Source: Mesorhizobium loti (GTDB lineage Bacteria > Pseudomonadota > Alphaproteobacteria > Rhizobiales > Rhizobiaceae). Taken from it: 64,000 nucleotides of DNA. Where the stretch lies: assembly GCA_002356515.1 (NCBI GenBank), contig AP017605.1:3038001-3102000 (forward strand), written 5' to 3'. Position 1 is the first letter of the stretch, and every line of letters starts with the position of its first letter. The notes below the pieces were generated by a model. That model saw only the letters and a list, made by a program, of their open reading frames with translations. It ran no database searches and was not told where the DNA came from. Shown one piece after another: positions 38,468 through 53,687 of the stretch. The position numbers and the translations under genes were made by a program.

Positions 38468-38872
38468 TTAGGCCGCTTCGGCCCGGCACTTTGCGCAAAC
38501 ACCGCGAAACTCGATCACCGCCTTCTTGGCAGCGAAGCCGGTCGAACTGACCCATTCGTTCAGCCGGTGGTCGACATCGTGATCGGACATCTCCGTCACC
38601 TGCCCGCACGTGTCGCAGATGGCGAAGGCGGTCATTGAATGGCTGTGATCGTGCGGTTCGGCGCAGGCAACGAAGGAATTGATGCTTTCCAGCCGGTGGA
38701 CAAAGCCGGACTTAACCAGCGTGTCGAGCGCCCGATAGACCTGCAGCGGCGCGCGAAAACCGCGCTCGCGCAGTTGGTCAAGCAATGTGTAGGCGCTGAG
38801 CGGCCCGCTGGCGGCCTCGAGTTTCTCGAGCACGCACACCTGGTTTTTCGTCAGCACATCCCTTGCCGCCAT
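38468..38872 (-). CDS. zur: Zinc uptake regulator, Fur family
   Basis: A 134-residue Fur-family repressor. The winged helix (LTKNQVCVLEKLEAASGPLSAY, APLQVYRALDTLVKSGFVHRL) is followed by the metal-binding dimerisation domain with EPHDHSHSM and the structural zinc cysteines CDTCG and CAKC. The HDHSH pattern and short N-terminus fit Zur, which represses zinc uptake genes when zinc is sufficient; znuABC is not in this window. I chose ATG 38872 (GGAACAG upstream); longer starts add an arginine-rich tail that is not family-like. It is divergent from the caspase operon. Confidence 0.85.
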   Translation of the reverse strand: MAARDVLTKNQVCVLEKLEAASGPLSAYTLLDQLRERGFRAPLQVYRALDTLVKSGFVHRLESINSFVACAEPHDHSHSMTAFAICDTCGQVTEMSDHDVDHRLNEWVSSTGFAAKKAVIEFRGVCAKCRAEAA

Positions 38873-39117
38873 GGTTCTGTTCCAACTTGTCCTGCGCCAT
38901 CCCCGGGCTCTTTGCCCGTGCAAACGGCCCGATGCCATTCAGATAGCGACGAACCGTCGTCTTTGCTACTCTTCTGTTGTTGTCCCGGGCCAATCGATAA
39001 CGTGCCGGCACATTTGACGATGACAGGGTTGATGACGCAGCGACATTCAAAATACTGACAAAATCCTCGACGAGGGTGGTTTCGCTTGGGAAATTCGATC
39101 GGGCTTGGGGAAGCGAT

Positions 39118-41319
39118 ATGATCAAATTGACACGCCGGACGCTGCTTGTCGGCGCGTCCGCGCTGATGGCGGCTGGTACGATATCGTTCCGGGCACTGGC
39201 GGCATCGCGCACCTATCATGCGCTGCTGGTCGCCTGCACCGAATACCCTGCCTTGCCGCAGAGGAACTGGCTGATCGGGCCAAAGAACGATGCCGGCCTG
39301 GTGCACGAGTATCTGCTGAAGAACGTGCCCGACCCGGTGCGGTTTGCACCCGAAAACGTCACGCTGCTCGCCAAGGATGTGCCCGGCGCCAATGGCTTGC
39401 CGACCCATGCGGCGATCAAGGCGGCGCTGGCAGATTTGGCGGCCAAGGTTCAGCGTGACGATTTCGTCTATCTGCATCTGTCCGGCCATGGCGCCCAGCA
39501 GCCTGAAAGGGTCAAGGGCGACGAGACCGACGGGCTCGACGAGATTTTCCTGCCGGTCGACATCGAGAAATGGATAAACCGCGACGCCGGCGTGCCGAAC
39601 GCGCTGGTCGACAATGAGATTGGCGACGCGCTCGACGCCATCCGCAACAAGGGCGCCTTTGTCTGGGCCGTCTTCGACTGCTGCCATTCCGGCACCGCGA
39701 CTCGCGCCGTCGAGGTCGACGACGAGCTGGAACGCAAGGTTGAGTTCGCCGACCTGGTCGGCGGCGACGAGGCTGCCAGGGCGGCCGCCATCAAGACCTA
39801 TGAGGACACGGTCGCAGGCGCTTCGCGCGGCCTCGACGAGAATGGCGCGCGCAAGCCGGCCTTCAACCTGACGCCGACCGGCGGCGAGCCGATCACCAAG
39901 GGCAAGCTGGTCGCCTTCTACGCCGCGCAGACGGTGGAGACGACGCCGGAGATGCCGTTGCCCAAGGGCACGACGGATGCGCCGCGCTTCGGCCTGTTCA
40001 CCTTCACCATCCTGTCGAAACTGGCGGAGAATCCCAACGTCACCTATCGCCAGCTTGGTCAGGCTGTGCTGCAGCAATATTCAGCCGACAGCCGCACCCG
40101 GCCGACACCGCTGTTCGAGGGCGAACTCGACGCGCGCGTCTTCGGCACTGACAAGACCGACGCCGTCATGCAGTGGCCCATCGTCGTCAAGGACGGCGAG
40201 GCGACGATCGGCGCCGGCCTGCTGCATCGCCTCACGCCGGGCAGCAAGCTCGCCATCCTGCCCTCGGCGCTGTCGTCGCTGTCCGACGCGGTCGGCTATC
40301 TCGAGGTGGAGTCGGCCAAGAACCTGGAGAGCCACGTCAAGCCGGTCGAGTTCGAGAAGAAGCCGGCACTCAAGCTCACCGACATTCCCGCCAACGCCTA
40401 TGCACGGGTGGCGGAGATCGCCGTCGATTACAAACTTGCCGTCGCGCGGCCGGCCGCGACCAAGGGACTGGAGAAGGAAACCGAGCTGGTCAATTCGGTT
40501 CTCGACGAGCTGGCCGCGGCCAAGGAGACCGGCTTCAACATCGAGCTGGTCGATCCGGGCAAGAGCGCCGAGCTGCGCTTCGCGGTGATGCGCGAGAATG
40601 CCATTGAAGGCGCGGCCGGGGACGCCACCGACAAACCGGCGCTGTGGTTCCTGCCGGCATCGGGCGACGTGACCCTGAAGGACGGCAGCAAGCCGCCGCT
40701 GATCATCATCCATCCGGACGATCGCCAGAAGCTGGTCGACGCAACGGCCAGGAATTTGCGCACCATCTTCCGCGCCACGGGCCTGTCGCGGCTGGCGGCG
40801 GCCTCCGACTACAAGCCCGAGGATGTCGACGTGCAGTTCCAGGTCAAGCGCCGCGACAAGGATGGCCTTGAACCGCTGCAGGCTTCCGCGGTGCCGCGCG
40901 TCTCGCCGGGCGACGAAGTGCATGTGCTGGCCAAGAACAGTTCGGACCAACTGGTCGACATCAACGTGCTCTATGTCGGCAGCGACTATTCGATCACCCA
41001 CATCGTTGCCGAGCGTCTCGCCCCGCAAGCCACGCTGGAGGAAGGGCTGCTCGCCTTCACCGACACCAGCTTCGGCATGGAACGGATGATCGCGGTGCTG
41101 ACCGAGGCGCCGCCGGAGAGCGAGAAGGAGGATCTGAGCTTCCTGGCGCAGGACGGCGTCGCCTCGATGACGCGCGGCCTCGGCCCCGCCAGCTTCTCCG
41201 ACATGCTCGCCGATATCGGCGCGGCGCCACCGACCCGATCGGTGATGCGGCTTGCCGACAAGAGCGGCCCGAAGGGCGCGGTGATGATCTTCCCGATGGA
41301 GACGGTGCCGCGCGCCTGA
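39118..41319 (+). CDS. Tat-exported caspase family (orthocaspase-like) protein
   Basis: A 733-residue protein. A twin-arginine signal (LTRRTLLVGASALMAAG, RR at 6-7) predicts folded export. Residues about 32-330 form a C14-type caspase/metacaspase p20 domain (YHALLVACTEYPALPQRNW, histidine H124 in YLHLSGHGAQ, cysteine C189 in FDCCHSGT), with a non-catalytic C-terminal region containing a DUF4384-like beta domain (VSPGDEVHVLAKNSSDQLVD and INVLYVGSDYSITHI). GGGGAAG precedes the ATG. It starts a plus-strand gene run with a second caspase gene. It should cleave after basic residues like other metacaspases (family knowledge); its substrate is unknown. Confidence 0.88.
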   Translation: MIKLTRRTLLVGASALMAAGTISFRALAASRTYHALLVACTEYPALPQRNWLIGPKNDAGLVHEYLLKNVPDPVRFAPENVTLLAKDVPGANGLPTHAAIKAALADLAAKVQRDDFVYLHLSGHGAQQPERVKGDETDGLDEIFLPVDIEKWINRDAGVPNALVDNEIGDALDAIRNKGAFVWAVFDCCHSGTATRAVEVDDELERKVEFADLVGGDEAARAAAIKTYEDTVAGASRGLDENGARKPAFNLTPTGGEPITKGKLVAFYAAQTVETTPEMPLPKGTTDAPRFGLFTFTILSKLAENPNVTYRQLGQAVLQQYSADSRTRPTPLFEGELDARVFGTDKTDAVMQWPIVVKDGEATIGAGLLHRLTPGSKLAILPSALSSLSDAVGYLEVESAKNLESHVKPVEFEKKPALKLTDIPANAYARVAEIAVDYKLAVARPAATKGLEKETELVNSVLDELAAAKETGFNIELVDPGKSAELRFAVMRENAIEGAAGDATDKPALWFLPASGDVTLKDGSKPPLIIIHPDDRQKLVDATARNLRTIFRATGLSRLAAASDYKPEDVDVQFQVKRRDKDGLEPLQASAVPRVSPGDEVHVLAKNSSDQLVDINVLYVGSDYSITHIVAERLAPQATLEEGLLAFTDTSFGMERMIAVLTEAPPESEKEDLSFLAQDGVASMTRGLGPASFSDMLADIGAAPPTRSVMRLADKSGPKGAVMIFPMETVPRA

Positions 41320-41437
41320 GTTCCGGTGCCAGGGCCGCACGGCCCTGTTGCGCCGGCTCTTGCGAGATCGGTGCGATATGAGAACATTCCCGGCCGCCAT
41401 GGCGCATGTCGGCTGGATGAAGCAGATAGGATCGATT

Positions 41438-41818
41438 GTGAAGAATTCCGTGTTTTCCTGGCGCGTGGCGGTGGCCGGCTTGGCCGGCAGCCTGTTGCTG
41501 ATCGCCAACGCTTCGGCAGAGGACGCTTGCGGCCTGTGCGTCAAGCAGATCGTCACCAACTCGGAACTGGCGACCTGTTTTCTCGATCAGTACGACCAGA
41601 TCGCCAAAAGCAACAGCAACGCTGTAGTGGTCGATCTCTCGAGCTGTGCCTCGCGCGGCATCGTCGAGGCATTGCCGTCACCGACAAAGGCGCCTGCGGA
41701 ACCGGACGTGCAGTTCATGGTCTCGCGCCCGCAACTGCAGTGCCTGAAGAAGCAGCTGGAGACGCCGGGCATCGTGCTTGATCCCTCCGCCACCATCGAA
41801 CTGGACAACTGCAAATGA
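41438..41818 (+). CDS. Small secreted hypothetical protein of the caspase locus
   Basis: A 126-residue product when started at GTG 41438, where AGGATC stands upstream and a classical signal peptide begins (KNSVFSWRVAVAGLAGSLLL, cleavage after ANASA). Upstream in-frame ATGs (41378, 41399, 41417) are alternatives. The mature part (about 98 residues) has five or six cysteines (DACGLCVKQI, ATCFLDQYD, SSCASRG, LQCLKKQL, DNCK), suggesting disulfides in the periplasm. No family recognised. Its stop overlaps the next gene's start by 4 bp, so the two are coupled. Confidence 0.75.
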   Translation: MKNSVFSWRVAVAGLAGSLLLIANASAEDACGLCVKQIVTNSELATCFLDQYDQIAKSNSNAVVVDLSSCASRGIVEALPSPTKAPAEPDVQFMVSRPQLQCLKKQLETPGIVLDPSATIELDNCK

Positions 41819-42522
41819 AGAAGCCGGGGGGCACGACAAAGCAGACACGGATGGCAGCGCCCGCCAAGGCGCCGGCGGCGAAGCAGACGCTGCCGGAAAC
41901 CACCGAAGGTTTCCCCTGGCCAAGCAGCCATGAGATCAAGAAGGAGAGCAATCCCTTCACCGATCGCGACTGGCGCATGCTGGTCTATGCCTGGTCGGGC
42001 TTGCTGGTGCGTTTCGCCATCATCTTCACCCTGGCGTTCTCGGTCTATCAGTTCCTCGCCAATCAGGAACAGAAGCGCGTCGAGCAGACCATGTCGCTGG
42101 TCGAACTCTGGGAAACCAAGGATTACCAGCAGGCGCAGCGGGCATTGAAAGATCGTCTCGCCGCCCTCAACGCCAAATACGACAATCTGCTCAGCGCCAA
42201 TCCTTCGCCGACCGAGGAACAGGTGTTCCGTCAGCGCATCGGCATCGAGGCGATGACCGCCTCCGGTGGCGACATGCCGCTCGCCGATTTCAACGAGAAT
42301 TTCGACCGCATCGTCTATTTCCTCAACCGCCTGTCCTTCTGCGTCGACGGCAACCTGTGTTCGCGCAAGGTGACCGACGCTTATTTCCGCGACTATGCCG
42401 TCTCGTTCTGGAGCTATTTTGCCGGCTATGTCGACAAGCAGCGCAAAGCCGGTTCGCCGACTTTCGCCACGGCGATCGAGGCCTATGTGCGCAACGGGCA
42501 ACCGACGGCCGAAGCCAAATAG
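41815..42522 (+). CDS. Single-pass membrane protein of the caspase locus
   Basis: A 235-residue protein with a Lys/Ala/Pro-rich cytoplasmic start, one helix (about 62-82, LVRFAIIFTLAFSVYQFLAN), then a helical periplasmic or cytoplasmic part (NQEQKRVEQTMSLVELWETK, VYFLNRLSFCVDGNLCSRKV, DYAVSFWSYFAGYVDKQ). The VELWETKDYQQAQRAL...FLNRLS pattern recalls DUF4760-type proteins, but I do not assign it. It is tightly packed: 4-bp overlap with the gene before and 2-bp gap to the WD40-caspase gene, so it probably anchors or serves that protein. Confidence 0.75.
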   Translation: MKKPGGTTKQTRMAAPAKAPAAKQTLPETTEGFPWPSSHEIKKESNPFTDRDWRMLVYAWSGLLVRFAIIFTLAFSVYQFLANQEQKRVEQTMSLVELWETKDYQQAQRALKDRLAALNAKYDNLLSANPSPTEEQVFRQRIGIEAMTASGGDMPLADFNENFDRIVYFLNRLSFCVDGNLCSRKVTDAYFRDYAVSFWSYFAGYVDKQRKAGSPTFATAIEAYVRNGQPTAEAK

Positions 42523-42524
42523 CG

Positions 42525-45500
42525 ATGAGACACGCCCGGGTCAGCTTCCGCCTCATGCGTGCCTGCAGGTGGCTGGCCATGGCTGGAGCTTTGGTCACGG
42601 CCTCGGCCGTCCGCGCCGAGGACGCCCCGGATTTCCATCTCGATCTCGACACCGGAGGCCATACCGCCCGGATCGCCGACCTCGCTTTCACACCTGATGG
42701 CGAGGATCTGGTCTCGGCATCCGATGACAAGACCATACGCATCTGGGACTGGCAGAGCGGCGTGACGCTGCGCACCATCCGCGGCTATCTCGGCTATGGC
42801 AACGACGGCAAGATCTTCGCGGTCGCGGTCTCGCCGGACGGCAAGACGATCGCCGCCGGCGGCTATTTCGGTGCTGGTCTCGGCGACAAGCCGCCCTATG
42901 GCGATATCAGGCTGTTCGACTTCGCCACCGGCAAGATCAAGGCCGTGCTCAAGGCCGCCGACTACGCGACCTATGACCTCGCCTTCTCTCCCGATGGCAA
43001 GACATTGGCCGCCGGCGGTGCCGACGGCGTCGTCTATCTCTGGAAACAGGACGACAAGGCCACGTCTGGCTGGACGCTGGACAAGAAGCTCGATGCTGAT
43101 TCCTGGCACATCGACAAGCTGGCCTTCGCCGCTGCGGGAACCCGACTGGCGGCAACGACGACCGACAACGGCATCCGGCTGTGGGACGTCACCAAGGGCG
43201 AGGAGATCGCCTTGCCGGCTGAAGCCGAACCATTGCGGGACATCAGCGTCATGGCGCTAGCGGCCTCGCAGGATGGCAGCCTGTTCGCCACCGGCAGCAA
43301 GGACGGCCAGGTCCAGCTCTGGCGCGCGGCCGACGGCACGCTGGTGCGCGCCATGCCGAAGCAGGATTTCCTCATCGGCTCGCTGACCTTCGCCAAGGGG
43401 TCGCTTCTGGTCGCCTCATGCGGCTATCGCTGCGCCGACAAGCATCGCTCCACCGTCTGGAATACCGACAGCGGCGAGAAGCTGCTCGACTACAGCGGCC
43501 ACGACGGCACCGTCTATGCCAGTGCCGCCAATGCCGACGGCTCGCTGGTGGCGACCGCCGGCGGCACCCGCAACGCCATCCAGGTCTGGGACCCGGCGAC
43601 CGGCGAACGCAAGGCCTTGCTGCAAGGTGTGGGAGAGCCGGTGACATCAGTCGGCCTCGACGCCGCGAACGGAATCATCGCCTGGGGTAATGCCAACCCC
43701 TGCCCCGAGCGCGTGGCTTGCCCGGAACAGCTGGGTGCGCTGGACAAGACGCTGGAACTGCCGACCACCGAGCGGTTCTTCGAGGATCCGCAGCCCCTGA
43801 CCGAACCCGGCTCGTTTGCCCGCGCAGCATTTGCCGACGGCCAGTGGTCGCTACACGCCACGGCGGGTGGCAAGGACGCGCTGGAAAACGCTGTGCTGGA
43901 GATCATCAATGCCGGCAAGGTGGTGCGCTCGATCGAGAACGACGCCACCAACGGCTTTGCCCATTCCGCGTTCACGCTGATCGACAACGGGCTTGGCCTG
44001 ATCACCGGCGGCAGTGACGGCACGTTGCTGGAATACAAGGCCGCGACTGCCAGGGTCTCCGGCGAATTTATCGGCCATGCCGGCGAAATCAACGCCATGG
44101 TCTCCTCGGAGAAAGCCGGCCTGCTGGTCACCGGCAGTGCCGACCAGACGCTGAGGCTGTGGAACCTGAAGACGCACGAGCTGATCGTGTCGATGTTCTT
44201 TGCCGGCTCGCAATGGATCGCCTGGATGCCGCAGGGCTATTATTATTCCTCCGACGAGGGCGACAAGCTGATTGGCTGGCAGGTCAACCAGGGCCGCGAT
44301 CATGAAGGCCGTTTCATCCGCGCCGGCCAGTTGAAGAAATATCTCTGGAGCCCCGAAATGGTGCGCCGTGCCATCATCCTGCGCAGCGCCAAACAGGCGG
44401 TCAAGGAGATGCGGCCGGGCGTCGACGACGAGTTGCAGAAGCTTTTGCAGCGCAAGCCGCCGGAATTCGACATCCGGCTGGCCGACGACCAGAGCAAGGT
44501 CCGTGACGGTTATGTCGCCGTCGAGATCACAGGCGCCAAGGAGGCCGGCACCGATGTCGCCGGCTTCTCGATCTTGTCGAACAGCCGCAATGTCGGCGAC
44601 ATTGCCACGCGTTCGGCGGACGGCAACCACACCATCGTCGAAGTGCCAGTCGAGGATGGTCAAAACACCATCCGCATCACCGGCACCAACGAATATGGCT
44701 ATCTGACCGAACGCAGCGTGACCGCGCTGGCGAGGAAGACGGAGAAGGCCGAAGCCAAGGGCAAGCTCTATGTCGCGGTGATCGGTGTCGACAAATACCC
44801 ATTCCTGACCAATGCCTGTTCAGGCCACGCCTGCGATTTGCGCTACCCCGTCGATGACGCCACCGAATTCCTCAAGGTGATCGCGCAGAAATCGGCGCCT
44901 TTGTTCTCCTCGATGGAGACGCTGGTGCTGGTCAACCGCGAGGCGCTCGACGAGAGCCCCGACAAGGCGCAGCAGACCTACACGGTCGCCAGCGCCGACG
45001 GCATCATGGAGCCGGACTCGCACACGATCGACGACCAGCTCGCCGATTTCCTCGACAGACCCGGCGAGCACGACACCACCATCATTTTCGTTGCCGGCCA
45101 TGGCATCAACATCGACGAGGACTACTATTTCATTCCGACCGATGGCCGCAAACAGGATGCCGATCGCTGGAAGCGCTCCTCGCTTGTCGACTGGGGTGAC
45201 ATCCAGAAATCGGTCGAACGGGCCAAGGGCATGCGCTTCATGCTGCTCGACACCTGTCATGCCGCCAATGCCTTCAATCCGCGCCTGGAAAAGGACGCGC
45301 AGGACGCGCGCATCGTCGTGTTTTCGGCGACCGCGGCCAACAACACCGCCGCCGAACTGCCGGAACTGGGCCACGGCGTCTTCACCTATTCGATCCTCGA
45401 AGGCCTGCGCGGCAAGGCGCGGACATCCGACGGCGGCGTGACGCTGTTCGGGCTCGCCGATTTCATCTCGCGCGAAGTGGTTCGGCTGACGTCGTCGAAG

Positions 45501-45557
45501 CAGAAGCCGTTCTATTATGTCGGTGGCGTGGAGAATATCGTGTTGGCCGAGCCGTGA
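42525..45557 (+). CDS. Secreted WD40 repeat-caspase fusion protein
   Basis: A 1010-residue protein. A signal peptide (MRACRWLAMAGALVTASAVRA from residue 11) is followed by about eight to nine WD40 blades (about 45-580; for example FTPDGEDLVSASDDKTIRIW and EKAGLLVTGSADQTLRLWNL), a linker beta domain (about 650-745) and a C-terminal caspase domain (about 750-1005) with H859 (FVAGHGINID) and C911 (LLDTCHAANA). WD40 domains usually sense or bind a partner that controls the protease. ATG 42525 lies 2 bp after the preceding stop; ATG 42555 is equally possible. It is the largest gene in the cluster. Confidence 0.9.
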   Translation: MRHARVSFRLMRACRWLAMAGALVTASAVRAEDAPDFHLDLDTGGHTARIADLAFTPDGEDLVSASDDKTIRIWDWQSGVTLRTIRGYLGYGNDGKIFAVAVSPDGKTIAAGGYFGAGLGDKPPYGDIRLFDFATGKIKAVLKAADYATYDLAFSPDGKTLAAGGADGVVYLWKQDDKATSGWTLDKKLDADSWHIDKLAFAAAGTRLAATTTDNGIRLWDVTKGEEIALPAEAEPLRDISVMALAASQDGSLFATGSKDGQVQLWRAADGTLVRAMPKQDFLIGSLTFAKGSLLVASCGYRCADKHRSTVWNTDSGEKLLDYSGHDGTVYASAANADGSLVATAGGTRNAIQVWDPATGERKALLQGVGEPVTSVGLDAANGIIAWGNANPCPERVACPEQLGALDKTLELPTTERFFEDPQPLTEPGSFARAAFADGQWSLHATAGGKDALENAVLEIINAGKVVRSIENDATNGFAHSAFTLIDNGLGLITGGSDGTLLEYKAATARVSGEFIGHAGEINAMVSSEKAGLLVTGSADQTLRLWNLKTHELIVSMFFAGSQWIAWMPQGYYYSSDEGDKLIGWQVNQGRDHEGRFIRAGQLKKYLWSPEMVRRAIILRSAKQAVKEMRPGVDDELQKLLQRKPPEFDIRLADDQSKVRDGYVAVEITGAKEAGTDVAGFSILSNSRNVGDIATRSADGNHTIVEVPVEDGQNTIRITGTNEYGYLTERSVTALARKTEKAEAKGKLYVAVIGVDKYPFLTNACSGHACDLRYPVDDATEFLKVIAQKSAPLFSSMETLVLVNREALDESPDKAQQTYTVASADGIMEPDSHTIDDQLADFLDRPGEHDTTIIFVAGHGINIDEDYYFIPTDGRKQDADRWKRSSLVDWGDIQKSVERAKGMRFMLLDTCHAANAFNPRLEKDAQDARIVVFSATAANNTAAELPELGHGVFTYSILEGLRGKARTSDGGVTLFGLADFISREVVRLTSSKQKPFYYVGGVENIVLAEP

Positions 45558-45579
45558 GGGGGCCAGGTCTGCGCCAAGC

Positions 45580-45737
45580 CACCCCCCTCTGTCCTGCCGG
45601 ACATCTCCCCTCAAGGGGGGAGATTGGCTGTCATATTCGACTTCGCAAATCTTCAACGTCTCAAACGATCAACCGGCGACGAAGAGACTAATCTCCCCCC
45701 TGGAGGGGGAGATGTCCGGCAGGACAGAGGGGGGGCG
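45580..45737. repeat. Inverted repeat pair of a dispersed Mesorhizobium-type palindromic unit
   Basis: The left arm (about 45580-45625: accccccTCTGTCCTGCCGG, then ACATCTCCCC) and right arm (about 45690-45737: GGGGGAGATGTCCGGCAGGA, then CAGAGGGGG) are inverted copies about 65 bp apart. Each arm also contains its own small hairpin (CTCCCC...GGGGAG). They fill the 154-bp gap between the WD40-caspase gene and the MEMO-CapA gene. I recall this unit as widely dispersed in Mesorhizobium genomes. Confidence 0.75.
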
Positions 45738-47433
45738 CCTCGCGCGATCGTGGCTGGGTATCGCAGCAGCATTTTTCCTCTTCTTTACCCTTCCCTTCCA
45801 CGCCTTCGCCGCCCCGATCGTCTGTCCGCCCGGCATCGAAAACTTCCCGCCCTTCTACGACGACGCCACTTTGTTCAAGAACGCCATCGCCAATGCCGCC
45901 AGTATCCCGCCTTCCAACCAGCGGCTGACCGGCATCACCGTGCCGCATCATCTGCTGGCCGCCGACCTCGTGGCACTCGGCTTCCGCGCCGCGTCCGGCT
46001 TCCGCTACAAACGCATCGTCATCCTGTCGCCGGACCATTTCCACAAGACGCACAAGCTCTATGCCACTACGGCGCGCGGCTTCGACACGGTGCTTGGCCC
46101 GGTGGCAGCCGACACCGATGCCGTGCGCCTGCTGGAGGCACATGGCGACATGGTCGAAGACTCCTGCCTGTTCGACAAGGAGCATGGCGTGCGCGCCATG
46201 CTGCCGTTCCTGCATCATTATTTCCCCGAGGCGAAGATCGTGCCGGTGGCGATGTCGGTGAAGGCGAAGCGCGGCGACTGGGACAGGCTGGCCGAGGCGC
46301 TCAAAGCCATCGTCGACAGGGACACGCTGATCGTCGAATCCACCGATTTCTCGCACTATCTGCCGCAGCATGATTCCAGGCGCTTCGACCAGCAGACGCT
46401 GAACATGCTGGCCGCAAGCTCGCTCGACGGCATCGCGGCCCTGCGCCAGCCCGACCATGCCGATTCCGTCGGCGCGCTCTACATCCAGACCAGGCTGCAG
46501 CGTGAATTGTTCGGCGCCCAGCCGCTGGTCGTCGCCAATGAGAATTCGCAGGAACACACGTCCGACTACGTCGAGCGCACCACCAGCTATGTCGTGGCGC
46601 TGTTCGGCGCCTTCGGCCCCGGCTTCAACAACCCGGCGCGGCCAAAGGACAGGATCTACTATCTCGCCGGCGACGTGAATTTCGGCCGTGCCATGAAGAA
46701 GATTTTGGTCCGCGACGGCGTTGCCGACAAGATCGTCGATGGCATCCTGGCGCTGACCGGGTCGCGACCGCTGATCGTCAATCTCGAGGGCGTCATCCTG
46801 CCCAACGTGCCGGAAGCGATCGACGACATGACGCTGGCCATGCCGGAAGACCTCGCGGCCAGCATGCTGAAGCGGCTGCATGTCGCCGGCGTCAGCCTCG
46901 CCAACAACCACGCCTATGATCTCGGTCCATCAGGCTATGCCGAAACGCTGCGCGCGCTGGACGAGGCTGGCATCCCGCATTTCGGTCAGGGCGAAACGCT
47001 GGCACTGGATGATCTCGACCTGGTCGGTCTGACCGACATCGACACCAACGGCTCGAAGAACACCGACCTGTTGACTCCTGCCTTGCTCGACCGGCTGCTG
47101 CACGAAAATGCCGAGCGGCCGGTGGTCGCCTTCGTCCATTGGGGCCGCGAGTACAAGACCGAACCATCCGCGCGCGAAGACATGCTTGCCGACGAGATGC
47201 GGCTGCGCGGTGTCTCGGCCATCGTCGGCGGCCATCCGCATGTGTCGAGCGAGGCGATCGTCCCGCTTGCCGGCGGCGATGTGGCGGAGGTCTATTCGCT
47301 CGGCAATTTCCTGTTCGACCAGAGCGCCGAGCGCTCGTCCGGATCGATGCTGGAACTGCGCGTCTTCGCCCAGGGCACGATCTTCGTCAGGCTCATCCCG
47401 CTGCCCAACTATTTCGAGATGGGCCGGAAATAA
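45712..47433 (+). CDS. Exported MEMO (AmmeMemoRadiSam protein B)-CapA metallophosphatase fusion
   Basis: A 573-residue two-domain protein. After a signal anchor (about 10-33, ending FHAFA) comes a MEMO1/AmmeMemoRadiSam-B domain (about 40-300: VPHHLLAADL, ILSPDHFHKTH, EHGVRAMLPFLHHYFP, ESTDFSHYL) and a CapA/PGA-capsule type metallophosphatase-like domain (about 314-573: YYLAGDVNFGRAM, VNLEGVI, SLANNHAYDLGPSGY, FVHWGREYKTEP, IVGGHPHVSSEAI, YSLGNFLFDQ). The ATG and its GGAGGGGGAG ribosome binding site lie within the dispersed repeat. It ends the plus-strand run and abuts the MORN gene's 3' end. Confidence 0.85.
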   Translation: MSGRTEGGRLARSWLGIAAAFFLFFTLPFHAFAAPIVCPPGIENFPPFYDDATLFKNAIANAASIPPSNQRLTGITVPHHLLAADLVALGFRAASGFRYKRIVILSPDHFHKTHKLYATTARGFDTVLGPVAADTDAVRLLEAHGDMVEDSCLFDKEHGVRAMLPFLHHYFPEAKIVPVAMSVKAKRGDWDRLAEALKAIVDRDTLIVESTDFSHYLPQHDSRRFDQQTLNMLAASSLDGIAALRQPDHADSVGALYIQTRLQRELFGAQPLVVANENSQEHTSDYVERTTSYVVALFGAFGPGFNNPARPKDRIYYLAGDVNFGRAMKKILVRDGVADKIVDGILALTGSRPLIVNLEGVILPNVPEAIDDMTLAMPEDLAASMLKRLHVAGVSLANNHAYDLGPSGYAETLRALDEAGIPHFGQGETLALDDLDLVGLTDIDTNGSKNTDLLTPALLDRLLHENAERPVVAFVHWGREYKTEPSAREDMLADEMRLRGVSAIVGGHPHVSSEAIVPLAGGDVAEVYSLGNFLFDQSAERSSGSMLELRVFAQGTIFVRLIPLPNYFEMGRK

Positions 47434-49260
47434 CTAGCCGCAGCCGATCATCTGCCGCGGCAGATAGCACGCCGCAGGCTCGGTCTTGGTCTCGAACAGC
47501 GACTGCTTCGGCCGGAAATAGAAGAAGGTCACCGGCTTGCTCTCGCGCACGCTGCCGTCGGCAAAATGCGCGGCGATGCTGAAACTGTGGATCGACGACA
47601 TCGCCGACCACATTTTCAGCCGCGCCGTGTAGGCGCTGACATTCTTGTTGCCGCGCACCGGCATGGCGATCGTGTAGTCGTGTTTGCCGATCGGGAATTC
47701 GATGTTCTGGTAGCGCATGGCTTCGGGGTTGCCGCCACCGCCATCGCCGCATTCGGCCATCGATTCAGGCGTCTCGAAGACCGCCATGGTCATCTGGGCG
47801 CGGAACGGTTCGCTCTGCTGGTAGACATTGCCCTGATCGTCGGCCCAGGAATAGTCTAACTTGCCGATCGCATTCAGCGTCATCGCCTGATTGAAATTGC
47901 CAAGATAGTCGCTGACCTCACCGAACTTGATCTTGTTGGTGAGCTGGCTGCGGCAGACGTTGAGACTGTCGACCGACGGACAGGGAAAACGCCCCGTTTC
48001 CAGGCTCGCAGTATCGACGCCGGCCTCGTCGAGCACGCTCTTGATCGACACGTCGACGCCATCGCCGAAACCGCCGATGTCCTTGGTGAACATGCGGCTT
48101 GGCTGGCCGGTCGGATTGCCTTCCTCATCCACCGTGGTGAACTGGATCGACATCTTCATGTCCTTGGCGTCGCCCCAGCCATTGTTGAGAACAGAGAAAT
48201 CCGGCCGGAAGCCGATGCAGCCAAAATGCTCCGAGATCGACAGCATCGGTTTACGGTAGGCGTCGCTGGCAGCGACCTTCATTTCCAGACTGTCCAGCTT
48301 GACCCTGGACTCGTCCGTCGTCTTCAGGTCGACCTCGGCAAAGGCCGGCGTGTTTTCCCAATCCGGACCGTCATAGACATTGGTGGTGTTGACCGTTCCC
48401 GTGCCGTTCCAGGCGTCATTGTAGAGGTTCTCCTCCGGATAGATCGCCACGTCCTCGTCGCGCACCAGATGCTGGTATTTCATGTCGGCCTGCTGGGTCA
48501 TGCGCTGGTCGACGATGACGCCGATCTCGACCTTATCGGCATCGCCGCCGCCGGCCTGCGCCTTGAGCAGGCCGCCGACCCTGGCATCGGCCAGAACGTC
48601 GGGACGCGAACCGCCGACCTCCTTGCCCATCACCCATTGCGATTCATAGACCGTGCCGCCGGCGAGCCGTGTCTGGCCCTTGCCGTTCTTCAGCCCGCCG
48701 ACAAAGGAGCCGGCGAAGATCTCGCCTGTATTCGACAGCAACCGGCCCTGGCCATTCGGGATGCCGTCAACGAATTGGCCTTCATAGCGATTGCCGTCGG
48801 CATCGATATGCATGCCCTTGCCGTTGAGTTCTCCGGCTAACCAATGGCCATCGAACACTTCCCCAGAGCGCAGCTCGAGCCGGCCTTGCCCATCGGGCCG
48901 GCCGTTCCTGACATCGCCGAAATAGCTGGAATAGACGGTCTTCGGGTCATAGCTCGCCGAGCCACGCACCCGCCACACCAGCCTGCCCTTGCCGTTGACG
49001 GTGCCGTCCTGCGCGATCGTCTTGTCGGGTGACTGCCCCGGTGCCGGCTCCCAGACGAAGTCGAGGTTTTTCTCGGGATGGAAATCCCAGACACGCACGG
49101 TCCTGCGCAGCACGGAGCGTGTGTCGGCCCGATAGAGGATCTGCACGCGCTCCGCCCAGGCGCCGCCGACGGGAGCGGGATCGGCGAAAGCCGTCGAAAA
49201 CATCAACGTGGCCAGCATCGATGCGGCCGCGACCCCGAACACTACCCTTGCCCGCGCCAT
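47434..49260 (-). CDS. Secreted MORN-repeat protein
   Basis: A 608-residue protein. A signal peptide (ARARVVFGVAAASMLATLMF, cleavage after TAFA) is followed by four to five MORN repeats (about 112-212: YFGDVRNGRPDGQGRLELRS, YEGQFVDGIPNGQGRLLS, FAGSFVGGLKNGKGQTRL) and a long C-terminal region with no domain I know, containing several cysteines. MORN repeats bind lipids or partner proteins at membranes. Its stop is adjacent, base to base, to that of the MEMO-CapA gene, so the two transcripts converge. Reading order with the serine protease gene (same strand) suggests they may be linked functionally. Confidence 0.85.
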   Translation of the reverse strand: MARARVVFGVAAASMLATLMFSTAFADPAPVGGAWAERVQILYRADTRSVLRRTVRVWDFHPEKNLDFVWEPAPGQSPDKTIAQDGTVNGKGRLVWRVRGSASYDPKTVYSSYFGDVRNGRPDGQGRLELRSGEVFDGHWLAGELNGKGMHIDADGNRYEGQFVDGIPNGQGRLLSNTGEIFAGSFVGGLKNGKGQTRLAGGTVYESQWVMGKEVGGSRPDVLADARVGGLLKAQAGGGDADKVEIGVIVDQRMTQQADMKYQHLVRDEDVAIYPEENLYNDAWNGTGTVNTTNVYDGPDWENTPAFAEVDLKTTDESRVKLDSLEMKVAASDAYRKPMLSISEHFGCIGFRPDFSVLNNGWGDAKDMKMSIQFTTVDEEGNPTGQPSRMFTKDIGGFGDGVDVSIKSVLDEAGVDTASLETGRFPCPSVDSLNVCRSQLTNKIKFGEVSDYLGNFNQAMTLNAIGKLDYSWADDQGNVYQQSEPFRAQMTMAVFETPESMAECGDGGGGNPEAMRYQNIEFPIGKHDYTIAMPVRGNKNVSAYTARLKMWSAMSSIHSFSIAAHFADGSVRESKPVTFFYFRPKQSLFETKTEPAACYLPRQMIGCG

Positions 49261-49356
49261 CCCTTGAGCCCCTTGGATGCCTCGCCCCCTTGGCAAGCCA
49301 AGCGTAGTCGGGGCACGGGCCTCGTGCAAGGGAAGCCTTGCGGAAGGATCGGCACG

Positions 49357-49390
49357 AAAAAAGGCGGCGGGATTGCTCCGCCGCCTTTTT
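49357..49390 (-). terminator. Intrinsic terminator after the V8-like protease gene
   Basis: AAGGCGGCGG-GATTGCT-CCGCCGCCTT forms a stem of at least 10 bp with A-runs on one side and T-runs on the other, so it can terminate in both directions. It lies 20 bp past the protease stop codon in the minus direction. Confidence 0.88.
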
Positions 49391-49409
49391 ATAACTGCTT
49401 GTACGAGCG

Positions 49410-50498
49410 TTATTTATACAGGCTGTTGATCCACTGCACGTTTGCGGCATTCAGGCGCACGGCGGTGTTCGCCTCGGGGCTTTCCGCCACGTTGACGCCG
49501 GTGATGATGCGCTGCTTGGAGTTGTTGTCGTAGGCATAGACCGAGCTGCCGCTCGACCCCGGGAACGTATCGCAGTCATACTGGAAATATTCCGGAGCGA
49601 TGTTTTCGGCATGCACTTCGCAGCTTGCCTTCCACATCGTGCCCATCGGCTTATCGCCGGGGTAGCCGACGAGATTGGCGGTGAAGTCGCCGAGATCGTC
49701 ATAGTTGGCATAGCCCAGCCAGCCAAGGTTGGTGCCGACATCCTGCTTCAGCGTGACGATGCCGAGATCCCACGGGATGACCGAACCATAATAGCCCTGG
49801 TAGTTGTCGATGAACCCCTGCAACACATAGGCGCTTTCATAGGTGAAGGCGCCGAACGGTGCGTCATCGGCAGTGCTGCCGTTGAGGCCCGGCACGAACA
49901 GATAGTCGGACAACCAGTCCTTGTCCTCATGGCTGTAGAGGCAGTGCGCCGCGGTGAGCACGGTGCGCGGGCCGATCAGGGTTGCCGAGCAGCTGCCGTA
50001 GCCGGTCTTCGACTTGGCTTCGAGATAGCCGATTGCCGAGAACGGATAGGTCTTGGTGTTCTTGACCTGCTCGCGATCGTCGGTGCCGAAAACCTGGCGG
50101 CCGGCCTCGCCTTCGCCGAGCCCGGGATCCTCGGTCTTGCGCGGCCCACCTTCAGCTCCATTGGCCGGAGCGTTCAGTTCCTTGATGATGAGCTCGCGCA
50201 GCGCTTCGCTCGGCTCGATCTTGATCACCTTGCCATCGGCGGAACGCCCGACGATGCCATAGGATTTCACAGCCGTTTTCTCGTCGGTGAGCGGCGCGGC
50301 GCGGCTGTCTTCGTCAGTAAGCTTCGGTGTTGTGATCGGTTTTGCCCGACCGGCCTTGAAGTCGCCTGAAGTAACGTCCCGCATGCTTTCGCCACTACCG
50401 GCACTGGCGGAACCAGGGTCGGCGGCGAAGACCGGGACCGTCCACATTGCAGTGGAAAGCAATGCAGACGCAATAAGTGCGTTTGTCAGTTTTGTCAT
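49410..50498 (-). CDS. Secreted V8-like (trypsin fold, S1B) serine protease
   Basis: A 362-residue exported protease. Signal peptide MTKLTNALIASALLSTAMWT, cleavage near VFA (residue 25), then a roughly 110-residue Pro/Asp-rich propeptide, then the catalytic domain with triad H185 (LTAAHC), D244 (PWDLGIV) and S316 (FPGSSGSSV). The GSSGSS site and VGYPGDKPMGTMW resemble glutamyl endopeptidase/V8-type enzymes. The long acidic prosequence suggests zymogen control. It is divergent from another S1 protease gene (400-bp spacer), and followed by a strong terminator. Confidence 0.9.
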   Translation of the reverse strand: MTKLTNALIASALLSTAMWTVPVFAADPGSASAGSGESMRDVTSGDFKAGRAKPITTPKLTDEDSRAAPLTDEKTAVKSYGIVGRSADGKVIKIEPSEALRELIIKELNAPANGAEGGPRKTEDPGLGEGEAGRQVFGTDDREQVKNTKTYPFSAIGYLEAKSKTGYGSCSATLIGPRTVLTAAHCLYSHEDKDWLSDYLFVPGLNGSTADDAPFGAFTYESAYVLQGFIDNYQGYYGSVIPWDLGIVTLKQDVGTNLGWLGYANYDDLGDFTANLVGYPGDKPMGTMWKASCEVHAENIAPEYFQYDCDTFPGSSGSSVYAYDNNSKQRIITGVNVAESPEANTAVRLNAANVQWINSLYK

Positions 50499-50898
50499 GG
50501 TGAGACTCTCCCAAAAGTCAGCAAGGACTGGATCAAAATACAGAAATATTGTCGAGATCGTGGTGGTACCGAAAAAATGGTTAAGGCTATCGACGCACGT
50601 ACCGGATCGTTGTTTGCCACGGTCAATCTAAGCCCCCGCCAAAAGACCCTATCGCGACATACTGCCTAAAATAATCCAAGATTGGCAATGACAAATCGCT
50701 TCCACGTAGCCCGTGGGGGGCTATAGGGTTTTGTGCGGGTTCTGCTCGCGGGCACGGTTAGCAAAAGTGGGATTCGGTTTTGTGACCGATCGCGCGCCGT
50801 TTCGACACGGCACGCGTGCGGATCGCCGAACCGGCAGCGCTTCCTTGCACAAATGCCCGGCGTTGATCTGCGCGGGAGAATTGTCTCAGGAGGTTCAG
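50499..50898. other. Intergenic region between divergent serine protease genes
   Basis: A 400-bp spacer with an AT-rich part (about 50520-50600) next to the V8-like gene and a small hairpin AGCCC-GTGG-GGGGCT near 50710. It should carry both promoters. No gene or clear operator seen. An open frame to 50713 runs in front of the second protease but has no ribosome binding site. Confidence 0.45.
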
Positions 50899-51996
50899 GT
50901 GCACATCAAAAATCGGTTCGGGCCAATCGTTGCCGCATCGCTGCTTGGCATTGCCGCTGCCGTTACTTCAATCAACACAGGCCTGGCGGATGAAAGCACC
51001 GCGCGGCCTGAAGCGGCGGTCTCGCCGATGCAGCGGGTGACCGAGGCCAGGGCCAAGGCAGCGGCGGAGAACCCTGATGGCGCCGACCGGGTCTATGGCG
51101 GCAACCAGGCCGAAAAGGGCGCCTATCCTTTCCAGGTCGCGCTGCTCACCACCGCCAGGCTGGACGAGAACCCGGCCTCGCAGGCCAATGCACAATTCTG
51201 CGGCGGCAGCCTGATCGCGCCGCAATGGGTGCTGACGGCAGCGCACTGCCTCAACGACAAGGGCAAGCCGATCTCGCCTGATGCGGTCACCGTGCTGACC
51301 GGCGCCACCGACCTCAGCGAAGGCAAGCGCCACAAGGTGCTGGAGGTCATCGTCAACGAGGGCTACAGCGAACAGACGCTCGACAACGACCTTGGCCTGC
51401 TCCGGCTTGCCGAACCAGCCGATGCGCCGACCATCAAGCTTACCCGCGAGGCGACCCCCGACACCGGCAAGACCACCGTCACCGGCTGGGGCAAGATGCA
51501 GGACGGGACGTTCCCGACGACGCTGATGGTCGCCGACCTCGATCTGCAGCCGAACAGCGCCTGCAACAGCGGCATCAAGGCCATCTATGCGCATGATCTG
51601 AAGGCAGCGCTTGGCGATCTGTCCCACAGGATGCGCTATTCGGAAAAGGGCATCGATGCCGCCGCCAACGCGATCGCCGCCGACATGACCGACCCGCTGA
51701 CCAGCAACATGATCTGCGCCGGCACCACCAGCGGCGTGCGTGATGCCTGCAATGGCGACAGCGGCGGTCCGCTGTTCATCACCGGCGCCGGCGGCCCGGT
51801 CCAGGTCGGCGTCGTCAGCTGGGGCGAAGGTCCGGCCGACGGCAGCGCGGCCTGCGGCCACAAGGACGCCTATGGCATCTACACGCGGCTGGCCAATTAC
51901 GGCGGCTGGATCGAGGCGAAGATGAAGACCCCTGCTCCGGCGCCGGAAAAGCCGAAGGCCGGGCTTGGCACCGCCCAGAAGCCCAAAACGCCCTGA
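50899..51996 (+). CDS. Secreted trypsin-like (S1A) serine protease
   Basis: A 365-residue chymotrypsin-fold protease. It starts at GTG 50899, preceded by an ideal AGGAGG 6 bp away. A signal peptide (about 1-30, ending GLA) and short propeptide lead to R64-VYGG, close to the R-IVGG zymogen activation site of trypsins. Triad: H116 (VLTAAHC), D164 (LDNDLGLL) and S288 (GDSGGPL), with the trypsin-type MICAGTTSGVRDACNGD before it, so cleavage after Lys/Arg is likely. A roughly 30-residue insert (about 230-262) and a Pro/Lys-rich tail are unusual. It is divergent from the V8-like protease. Confidence 0.93.
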   Translation: MHIKNRFGPIVAASLLGIAAAVTSINTGLADESTARPEAAVSPMQRVTEARAKAAAENPDGADRVYGGNQAEKGAYPFQVALLTTARLDENPASQANAQFCGGSLIAPQWVLTAAHCLNDKGKPISPDAVTVLTGATDLSEGKRHKVLEVIVNEGYSEQTLDNDLGLLRLAEPADAPTIKLTREATPDTGKTTVTGWGKMQDGTFPTTLMVADLDLQPNSACNSGIKAIYAHDLKAALGDLSHRMRYSEKGIDAAANAIAADMTDPLTSNMICAGTTSGVRDACNGDSGGPLFITGAGGPVQVGVVSWGEGPADGSAACGHKDAYGIYTRLANYGGWIEAKMKTPAPAPEKPKAGLGTAQKPKTP

Positions 51997-52640: not shown

Positions 52641-53687
52641 CTATTTCCTCGGCGGGCCTTTGCGCTCGGCAGAGGCCGCCCACAGATTGATGTCGGATTC
52701 GCGCGCGTAGCTGTCGATCTCGGCCAATTCGGCATCGCTGAAGTCGAGCACCTTCAGTGCACCGACGCAGTCCTCGACCTGCTCCGGCCGGCTGGCGCCG
52801 ATCAGCGCCGACGTCACCTTGCCCTTGCGCAGCACCCAGGCCAGCGCCATCTGCGCCAGCGTCTGCCCACGCTTGCCGGCAATGGCGTTGAGCGCCTTGA
52901 TGTTGGTGATGGTGCGCTCGTTGATGAAGGCCGACTTCAGCGACTTGCCCTGCGAGGCGCGGCTGCCTTCGGGGATGCCGCCGAGATATTTGTCGGTCAG
53001 CATGCCTTGCGCCAGCGGCGAGAACACGATGGAACCGACGCCGAGTCCCTCCAGCGTATCGAGCAGACCGTCCTCCTCGACCCAGCGGTTCAGCATCGAA
53101 TAGCTCGGCTGGTGGATGACGCAGGGTGTGCCGAGCTGCTTCAATATATCGGCGGCCTCGCGGGTGCGCTGCGAATTGTAGGACGAGATGCCGGCATAGA
53201 GCGCCTTGCCCGAGCGCACCGCATGGTCGAGCGCGCCCATCGTTTCTTCCAGCGGGGTGTCGGGATCGAAGCGGTGCGAGTAGAAGATATCGACATAGTC
53301 GAGCCCCATCCGCTTCAGGCTCTGATCGAGACTGGCCAGCATGTATTTGCGCCCGCCCCATTCGCCATAGGGCCCCGCCCACATCTCGTAGCCAGCCTTG
53401 GTCGAGATGATCAGCTCATCGCGATATCCGGCAAAATCGGTGCGCAGGATTTCGCCGAAAGCGGTCTCGGCCGAGCCGGGCGGCGGCCCGTAATTGTTGG
53501 CGAGGTCGAAATGGGTGATACCGAGATCGAAGGCCTTGCGGGCGATCGCCTGCTTGGTCTTGTGCGGCGTGTCATTGCCGAAATTGTGCCACAGCCCAAG
53601 CGAGATCGCCGGCAGTTTGAGGCCGGACCGTCCGCAACGGTTGTAGATCATTTTTTCGTAGCGGTTTTCGGCGGCGATGTAGGGCAT
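52641..53687 (-). CDS. L-glyceraldehyde 3-phosphate reductase-like aldo/keto reductase (YghZ type)
   Basis: A 348-residue aldo/keto reductase close to E. coli YghZ (AKR14), as indicated by the start AENRYEKMIYNRCGRSGLKL and LSLGLWHNFG-like core, HFDLANNYGPPPGSAE (catalytic D and Y), IISTKAGYEMWAGPYGEWGG (K), DIFYSHRFD (H) and GALDHAVRSGKALYAGISSY. YghZ reduces L-glyceraldehyde 3-phosphate and methylglyoxal with NADPH. AAGGAT precedes the ATG. It lies downstream of the sugar operon on the same strand (149-bp gap with a hairpin and palindrome) and may act on its metabolites. Confidence 0.9.
   Translation of the reverse strand: MPYIAAENRYEKMIYNRCGRSGLKLPAISLGLWHNFGNDTPHKTKQAIARKAFDLGITHFDLANNYGPPPGSAETAFGEILRTDFAGYRDELIISTKAGYEMWAGPYGEWGGRKYMLASLDQSLKRMGLDYVDIFYSHRFDPDTPLEETMGALDHAVRSGKALYAGISSYNSQRTREAADILKQLGTPCVIHQPSYSMLNRWVEEDGLLDTLEGLGVGSIVFSPLAQGMLTDKYLGGIPEGSRASQGKSLKSAFINERTITNIKALNAIAGKRGQTLAQMALAWVLRKGKVTSALIGASRPEQVEDCVGALKVLDFSDAELAEIDSYARESDINLWAASAERKGPPRK

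Follow-up and report, generated by a model that had tools for sequence, protein, structure and literature searches.

The bacterial caspases of known role given in PMC12799240 serve in anti-phage defence. For some prokaryotic metacaspases extracellular roles have already been suggested, WD40 being the commonest companion domain (PMC3501461), and in Alphaproteobacteria pseudo-orthocaspases are known that combine a trypsin, a p20 domain with a QC dyad and DUF4384 (PMC6426788). Here we describe a locus of Mesorhizobium loti in which eight neighbouring genes (positions 39118-51996 of the window, i.e. the whole 64,000-nucleotide stretch of contig AP017605.1 that was analysed) encode two caspase-like proteins, a Cys-rich protein, a membrane protein, a MEMO-CapA fusion, a MORN-repeat protein and two S1 serine proteases. 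We read this locus, with a probability of about one half, as an extracytoplasmic proteolytic relay of two modules, perhaps an immune-like one. The anti-phage caspases just mentioned act inside the cell; if our reading is true, a conserved set of an exported metacaspase-type enzyme and serine-protease zymogens would put caspase signalling in the envelope. The literature that we searched held neither a conserved exported caspase/S1-protease locus nor a MEMO-CapA/MORN module.

All eight genes are open frames of the families that the initial annotation had assigned from the sequence (open reading frames and Pfam, the second gene being without a Pfam match), and the catalytic dyads, the 4-bp overlap and the 2-bp gap that it gave were all correct on re-reading. 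The first gene, casp1 (39118-41319, plus strand; 733 amino acids, aa), encodes a metacaspase-like protease, predicted to be exported by the twin-arginine translocation (Tat) route, that matches Peptidase_C14 (PF00656) with 46.8 bits and carries the dyad H124/C189 and the acidic pocket residues D58 and D187. It is followed by cysS (41438-41818, plus; 126 aa, 6 Cys), for a small, Cys-rich, predicted secreted protein; this gene overlaps by 4 bp (41815-41818) the gene for a DUF4760 membrane protein (41815-42522, plus; 235 aa; PF15956, 29 bits), which a 2-bp gap (42523-42524) separates from WDcasp (42525-45557, plus; 1010 aa; PF00400 and PF00656). The latter encodes a WD40-caspase, predicted to be exported, whose dyad numbering (H859/C911) holds for a start at 42525. 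Next come MEMOcap (45712-47433, plus; about 573 aa), for a predicted exported fusion of Memo (PF01875) and CapA (PGA_cap, PF09587), and, on the minus strand, the gene for a predicted exported MORN-repeat protein (47434-49260; 608 aa; PF02493) with a beta-rich C-terminal part, the AF2 model of which (pLDDT 81.5) was compared by Foldseek and VIA-align. The last two genes encode proteases with propeptides: a V8/glutamyl-endopeptidase-like enzyme (49410-50498, minus; PF13365, Trypsin_2, and PF00089, Trypsin) and a trypsin-like one (50899-51996, plus; PF00089, 153 bits). Judged by eye from n-h-c-like regions (a hydrophobicity script was applied to relatives only), seven of the eight products have signal-peptide-like N termini and the remaining one is the membrane protein, in agreement with the exported or membrane character claimed at first; the N terminus of casp1, with TRRTLLVG and ALA-A, reads by eye as a twin-arginine-type leader. 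That the eight genes do not stand together by chance is argued by their dN/dS (0.06-0.39 for all eight in four pairwise comparisons) and by their conserved order.

The active sites of the proteases speak in favour of a relay. Matches of casp1 in the PDB are metacaspases of yeast, T. brucei and plants; its AF2 model (pLDDT 74.7) resembles Arabidopsis metacaspase 4 (Foldseek) and has a long beta-rich C-terminal part, and the His-Cys dyad lies in a p20 fold (PF00656, and Foldseek to metacaspases). SGHG and DxCHS are present in 47 of the 48 casp1 orthologues read, the remaining one being a fragment. Both D58 and D187 are invariant in 12 alignment rows, the window included, and when casp1 is aligned with yeast Mca1, D58 falls on the Asp within GCINDA. 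Two Asp shape the basic-residue pocket of T. brucei MCA2 (PMC6426788); because D58 and D187 correspond to this pair (D58 by way of the Mca1 alignment), they would be the two acidic S1-pocket residues for a P1 Arg or Lys, and we infer that casp1 cuts after Arg or Lys. In WDcasp, AGHG and the catalytic Cys are found in 42 of 42 orthologues, the latter within LDTCH in 39, VDTCH in L161 and L163, and MDTCY in L152 (L- and G-numbers are our labels for loci and genomes).

The trypsin-like protease has its triad in TAAHC, NDLGLL and GDSGG, an Asp189-type pocket (DACNGDSGG) and a zymogen N terminus R-V-Y-G-G, cut between R64 and V65 if activated as its relatives are; the V8-like protease has its catalytic triad, the glutamyl endopeptidase 1p3c as nearest PDB entry, and a zymogen site R134-Q135-V136. 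Residue 1 of 3i78 aligns with V65 of the former and residue 2 of 1p3c with V136 of the latter, i.e. both zymogen sites lie where the mature chains of solved relatives begin, with a conserved Arg at P1. Among the orthologues read, the trypsin motif R[VI]xGG is kept in 46 of 47 (the Asp189-type motif in all 47) and the V8-like motif RQ[VI][FI]G, R-Q-V-F-G in the window protein, in 46 of 48; the Arg is missing where the gene is split (L140), where a contig end leaves a fragment (L128) and where the match is degenerate (L154). As P1 Arg at both zymogen sites meets both acidic pocket residues in casp1, these proteins look biochemically compatible, and the prediction follows that an Arg-specific caspase cuts the trypsin at R64 and the V8-like protease at R134.

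Among 150 genomes searched (the own genome included), close orthologues of casp1 and of the V8-like protease occur in an identical set of 32 of the same genus, and WDcasp and the MORN gene both in the same 25 of these. The eight-gene block is present in 25 same-genus genomes besides the own; in 22 of them the eight genes are contiguous and ordered as in the window, and in G062 they are divided at contig ends. The other seven casp1 carriers lack exactly WDcasp, MEMOcap and the MORN gene, so that the DUF4760 gene adjoins the V8 gene; in G067 casp1 is spread over two contigs. These seven fall in five places of a FastTree phylogeny of four concatenated proteins, read by eye, which suggests about five losses of the three genes as a whole; the count allows losses only, comes from a single tree without support values, and could be lowered by recombination of a deleted allele. 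The junctions left behind differ, being of at least four types by eye, with 5' remnants of WDcasp in L097, L098 and L102 and none seen by eye elsewhere. Because exactly these three genes go together and the others stay, the locus, on its gene content, is made of two modules: A, with casp1, the Cys-rich protein, DUF4760 and the V8-like and trypsin-like proteases; and B, with WDcasp, MEMOcap and MORN. The eight genes therefore do not make up a single unit, as the initial annotation had it. Its extracytoplasmic proteolytic system is retained in part, with the recurring neighbourhood, the P1 Arg at both S1 zymogen sites and the acidic pocket of casp1 in its favour.

On the left the locus is bordered by a gene for a Fur/Zur-family regulator (38468-38938, minus; PF01475), which scores 106.8 bits with the Zur model NF008646, under its cut-off of 167, and on the right by an aldo/keto reductase gene (52641-53687, minus; PF00248). 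These flanks adjoin directly in 11 of 11 non-carriers examined, leaving an empty site. The working label 'guaB?' for the reading frame at 36545-38104 does not denote a named gene. At two other, separate places G062 has a further MORN relative, distant at 41%, and a further casp1-like gene (L112, L113).

A scan with the MEMO-CapA alignment, one genome per species, gave 77 loci among the best 80 matches, and five markers (casp1, WDcasp, MEMOcap, MORN and S1) were scored there with our own profiles. All five are present in 39 of the 77 loci, 29 of these being Mesorhizobium or same-genus. Outside the genus the full order is kept in eight loci: Nitratireductor L156 and L159, Aquibium L161, L163 and L190, and the metagenome-assembled genomes (MAGs) L151 (with two MORN genes), L152 and L160. 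Their MEMO-CapA proteins are 52-66% identical, and all eight also hold the Cys-rich and DUF4760 genes, the former being found in L153 and L158 as well. With the 22 carriers in the genus they bear out the conserved neighbourhood that the initial annotation had set as its check. Two rhodobacterial MAGs, L169 (Natronohydrobacter sp.) and L170 (Rhodobacteraceae), have the five markers in rearranged form, with an S1 gene that is a weak trypsin match above the cut-off. Partial sets are WDcasp, MEMOcap and MORN in three loci (L164-L166), MEMOcap, MORN and S1 in L128 and L143 (the genus genomes G062 and G018), other combinations in L154, L167 and L171, MEMOcap with MORN in six loci and MEMOcap alone in 15; six loci show no marker over threshold (weak MEMO matches).

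These distributions bear on the possibility that two unrelated exported modules merely share one address between the Zur-like gene and the aldo/keto reductase. The seven genus genomes with module A and without module B would suit it, as would the WDcasp-MEMOcap-MORN sets with no casp1 match in the stretch read (L095, L164, L165, L166). It sits poorly with the five markers staying linked, otherwise arranged, in L169 and L170, with L215, from a distant family, where the genes for casp1 and a WD40-caspase are adjacent and convergent, and with a trypsin adjoining the WD40-caspase in L095 and L251, and we hold it to be improbable. The 15 loci with MEMOcap alone belong to other classes or phyla, except for L188, which is from Devosia and lies on a contig of 5 kb. 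In seven loci outside Alphaproteobacteria (L173, L174, L183, L185, L187, L189 and L192) MEMO-CapA lies directly downstream of a protein of about 770-1016 aa that forms one cluster; in the four of these scanned with Pfam (L173, L183, L187 and L192) it is a predicted exported DUF3160 protein (PF11369).

The six loci with only MEMOcap and MORN have neither WDcasp nor an S1 gene; adjoining or nearby in each is a WD40 protein that also bears nSTAND1, TIR or both. Both domains are found in L175, L182 and L195 (where the MORN part reads as fragments) and in L168 (read under the label L105, with nSTAND1 from Pfam and TIR recognised by eye); L172 has an nSTAND1-WD40 protein, and L176 a TIR-WD40 protein about 1.8 kb off. 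TIR and nSTAND1 count among conflict-system domains in PMC8195603, as do caspase and trypsin, and for this reason the swap of partners hints at an immune-like role for module B. In this light, the initial dismissal of cytosolic defence roles as ill-fitting was too strong. One may go further and see in the locus an envelope conflict or regulated-death system, in which the WD40 protein of module B would sense a trigger and the proteases would execute lysis or block an invader; its patchy occurrence and clean empty sites, and the CHAT proteins adjoining casp1 relatives, are consistent with this. Set against it are a PADLOC 2.0.0 scan of the eight proteins that returned single profile matches only (casp1 to 'caspase' with 49.6 bits, others weak), scores of 21.5 and 44.5 bits with the EACC1 caspase model NF047832, below its curated cut-off of 140, and the exported look of the proteins, unlike that of the known caspase defences. 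We regard such a system as rather unlikely. The CHAT proteins in question, of which several have TPRs or a hydrophobic N terminus, are found at L106/L216, L107, L119, L214, L226 and L227.

The relay reading draws further on the association of caspases with trypsins. Outside the genus an S1 protease stands beside a casp1 relative on Rhizobium megaplasmids (L040, L117), in L106, L107 and L226, and on a Pseudosulfitobacter plasmid, the protease there being of trypsin-PDZ type. That plasmid (L041) carries, near replication/partition genes, a caspase/serine protease pair, a second caspase, the trypsin-PDZ protein, a two-component system and CHAT; its casp1 relative is present on 46 Pseudosulfitobacter plasmid records. 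In the reverse direction, a trypsin profile matched 44 of 297 genomes of the order, 42 of them outside the genus, and one region of up to 18.5 kb was read in 36 of these 42, at the best-scoring place (the second-best in G574); G121, G126, G128, G103 (known positive) and G583, G538 (same genera as G550, G572) were left out. A caspase-like gene (own C14/casp1 profiles) occurs in 18 of the 36 regions (15 of 29 genera), with 0.63 expected from the PF00656 counts per genome, and in 14 of the 18 it is fused to the trypsin or at most 300 bp off. The controls were 30 regions at arbitrary coordinates, picked by hand on the contigs of the test regions (30 genomes out of the 36, the other six being on short contigs), and 0 of 30 held a caspase (Fisher p ~2e-6, the regions being taken as independent). 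The caspase-protease link proposed from the single locus thus recurs across the order. Pfam, run on eight of the 18 positives, gave C14 in seven and only WD40-type among the matches listed (25 of 61) for L255; three of the seven (L243, L248, L256) are Trypsin-C14 fusions, two of them with DUF4384. At class level (385 genomes) the trypsin profile matches seven genomes besides the own: in four the same frame carries the caspase profile, and in the remaining three no caspase was found nearby. A forward class-level search found casp1 relatives in seven other genomes, i.e. the same four and G153, G317 and G521, where no S1 neighbour was seen in the stretch read. The own genome (8.45 Mb) has 13 PF00656 matches, several clustered around 4.78 Mb and 6.55 Mb.

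A plain set of secreted degradative enzymes, with exported proteases for nutrient scavenging or envelope turnover and without a caspase-driven order of activation, would equally have four of eight products protease-like and seven of eight with signal-peptide-like N termini. Trypsins of this type are able to self-activate at Arg, and trypsin regions without a caspase are as frequent as those with one (18 of 36). The WD40-caspase, MORN and MEMO-CapA proteins are not typical digestive enzymes, however, and the recurring fusion and close adjacency of trypsin and caspase, as well as the loss of module B as a unit, speak for something more ordered; such a set appears unlikely to us.

Several observations weigh against the relay. 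Since trypsins can activate themselves at Arg, a P1 Arg alone does not point to a caspase, and the profile of the reverse test was built from seven trypsins that every one came from beside a caspase, which biases it; the trypsin regions in which our C14/casp1 profiles found no caspase have been given above. No trypsin was seen near nine casp1 relatives (L039, L108, L110, L113, L118, L119, L213, L214, L215; plasmid gene tables being incomplete), and in the own genome the 12 remaining PF00656 matches are all more than 10 kb from any PF00089 match. L153, L157 and L158 have casp1, WDcasp and MEMOcap, with MORN and S1 not matched by our own hidden Markov models. Within the genus, the two contigs examined of G056 showed the other genes but not MEMOcap, and one frame is broken in each of three of the 25 carriers (MORN in G042, WDcasp in G046, trypsin in G079). 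In G018, finally, the contig with MEMOcap, MORN, V8 and trypsin extends at least 10 kb upstream without WDcasp; the break, at an intergenic repeat, may be a rearrangement or a misassembly.

In the window this intergenic repeat occupies positions 45583-45734 and its translation ends in SPLEGEMSGRTEGG; related copies sit at the G018 break. MEMOcap most probably starts from the ATG at 45712, which the Shine-Dalgarno-like GGAGGGGGAG precedes, a choice made because the longer open reading frame from 45517 runs through the repeat. The latter thus seems to supply both the start codon and the ribosome-binding site of MEMOcap. For the MORN gene the ATG at 49260 was taken as start.

Taken as a relay, module A would bring together outside the cytoplasm the Tat-exported casp1, the Cys-rich protein, the membrane protein and two S1 zymogens with conserved activation-site Arg. 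In the simplest order casp1, or an already active trypsin, would cut after the zymogen Arg and switch on the trypsin and the V8-like enzyme, as the kept Arg, the mature starts of relatives and the casp1 pocket suggest, and these, once activated, would turn to substrates in the envelope or outside the cell. Module B may be an optional second arm, probably adding recognition or scaffolding and a second cut, and the whole could be an envelope response to stress or an invader. A bolder version, which we offer as a tentative and rather unlikely extension, would have bacteria run a zymogen cascade of caspase and trypsin beyond the cytoplasm, as a periplasmic equivalent of complement- or apoptosis-like cascades. 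MEMO-CapA and MORN would then be a reusable envelope module that pairs now with an exported WD40-caspase, now with a TIR/nSTAND1-WD40 protein, and so serves, as one recognition unit, two kinds of immune effector. Were the relay true, uncharacterised caspase homologues of Alphaproteobacteria would gain a testable substrate in the neighbouring zymogen, and the MEMO-CapA fusion and the bacterial MORN protein would gain a context.

Compared with known systems, the locus shares parts with several. MEMOcap scores 102 bits with TIGR04336 (AmmeMemoRadiSam system protein B; cut-off 26) and 112.6 bits with PGA_cap; unlike in AmmeMemoRadiSam and CapA systems, Memo and PGA_cap are here fused and look exported, and no AMMECR1 or radical SAM partner was found among the eight proteins (Pfam; eight genes only). 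With the trypsin-p20(QC)-DUF4384 proteins it has in common the link of a trypsin-like domain to a caspase in Alphaproteobacteria, and Trypsin-C14 proteins occur in this order too; as far as they are described in PMC6426788, those are single polypeptides with a QC dyad, whereas here the genes are separate, both caspases have His-Cys, and V8-like, MORN and MEMO-CapA proteins are added. The EACC1, NucA-trypsin and nSTAND1 systems, as presented in PMC8195603, likewise use a caspase or trypsin as activating peptidase, and nSTAND1 and TIR are found beside MEMO-CapA/MORN elsewhere; our locus differs in being without an EACC1 match at the cut-off and without a nuclease family among its eight proteins (Pfam; eight genes only), and in the signal-peptide-like N termini of its proteases. 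Metacaspases such as yeast Mca1, Arabidopsis MC4 and T. brucei MCA2 resemble casp1 in fold, dyad and acidic pocket, and differ from it in that casp1 has a Tat-type leader and the long beta-rich C-terminal part. The canu caspase-nuclease and the Hachiman/AVAST nuclease-trypsin systems are cytoplasmic. What they have in common with the proposed relay, going by their account in PMC12799240, is a protease that activates a co-encoded proenzyme; theirs is an anti-phage nuclease, whereas here the likely proenzymes are serine proteases, predicted to lie outside the cytoplasm.

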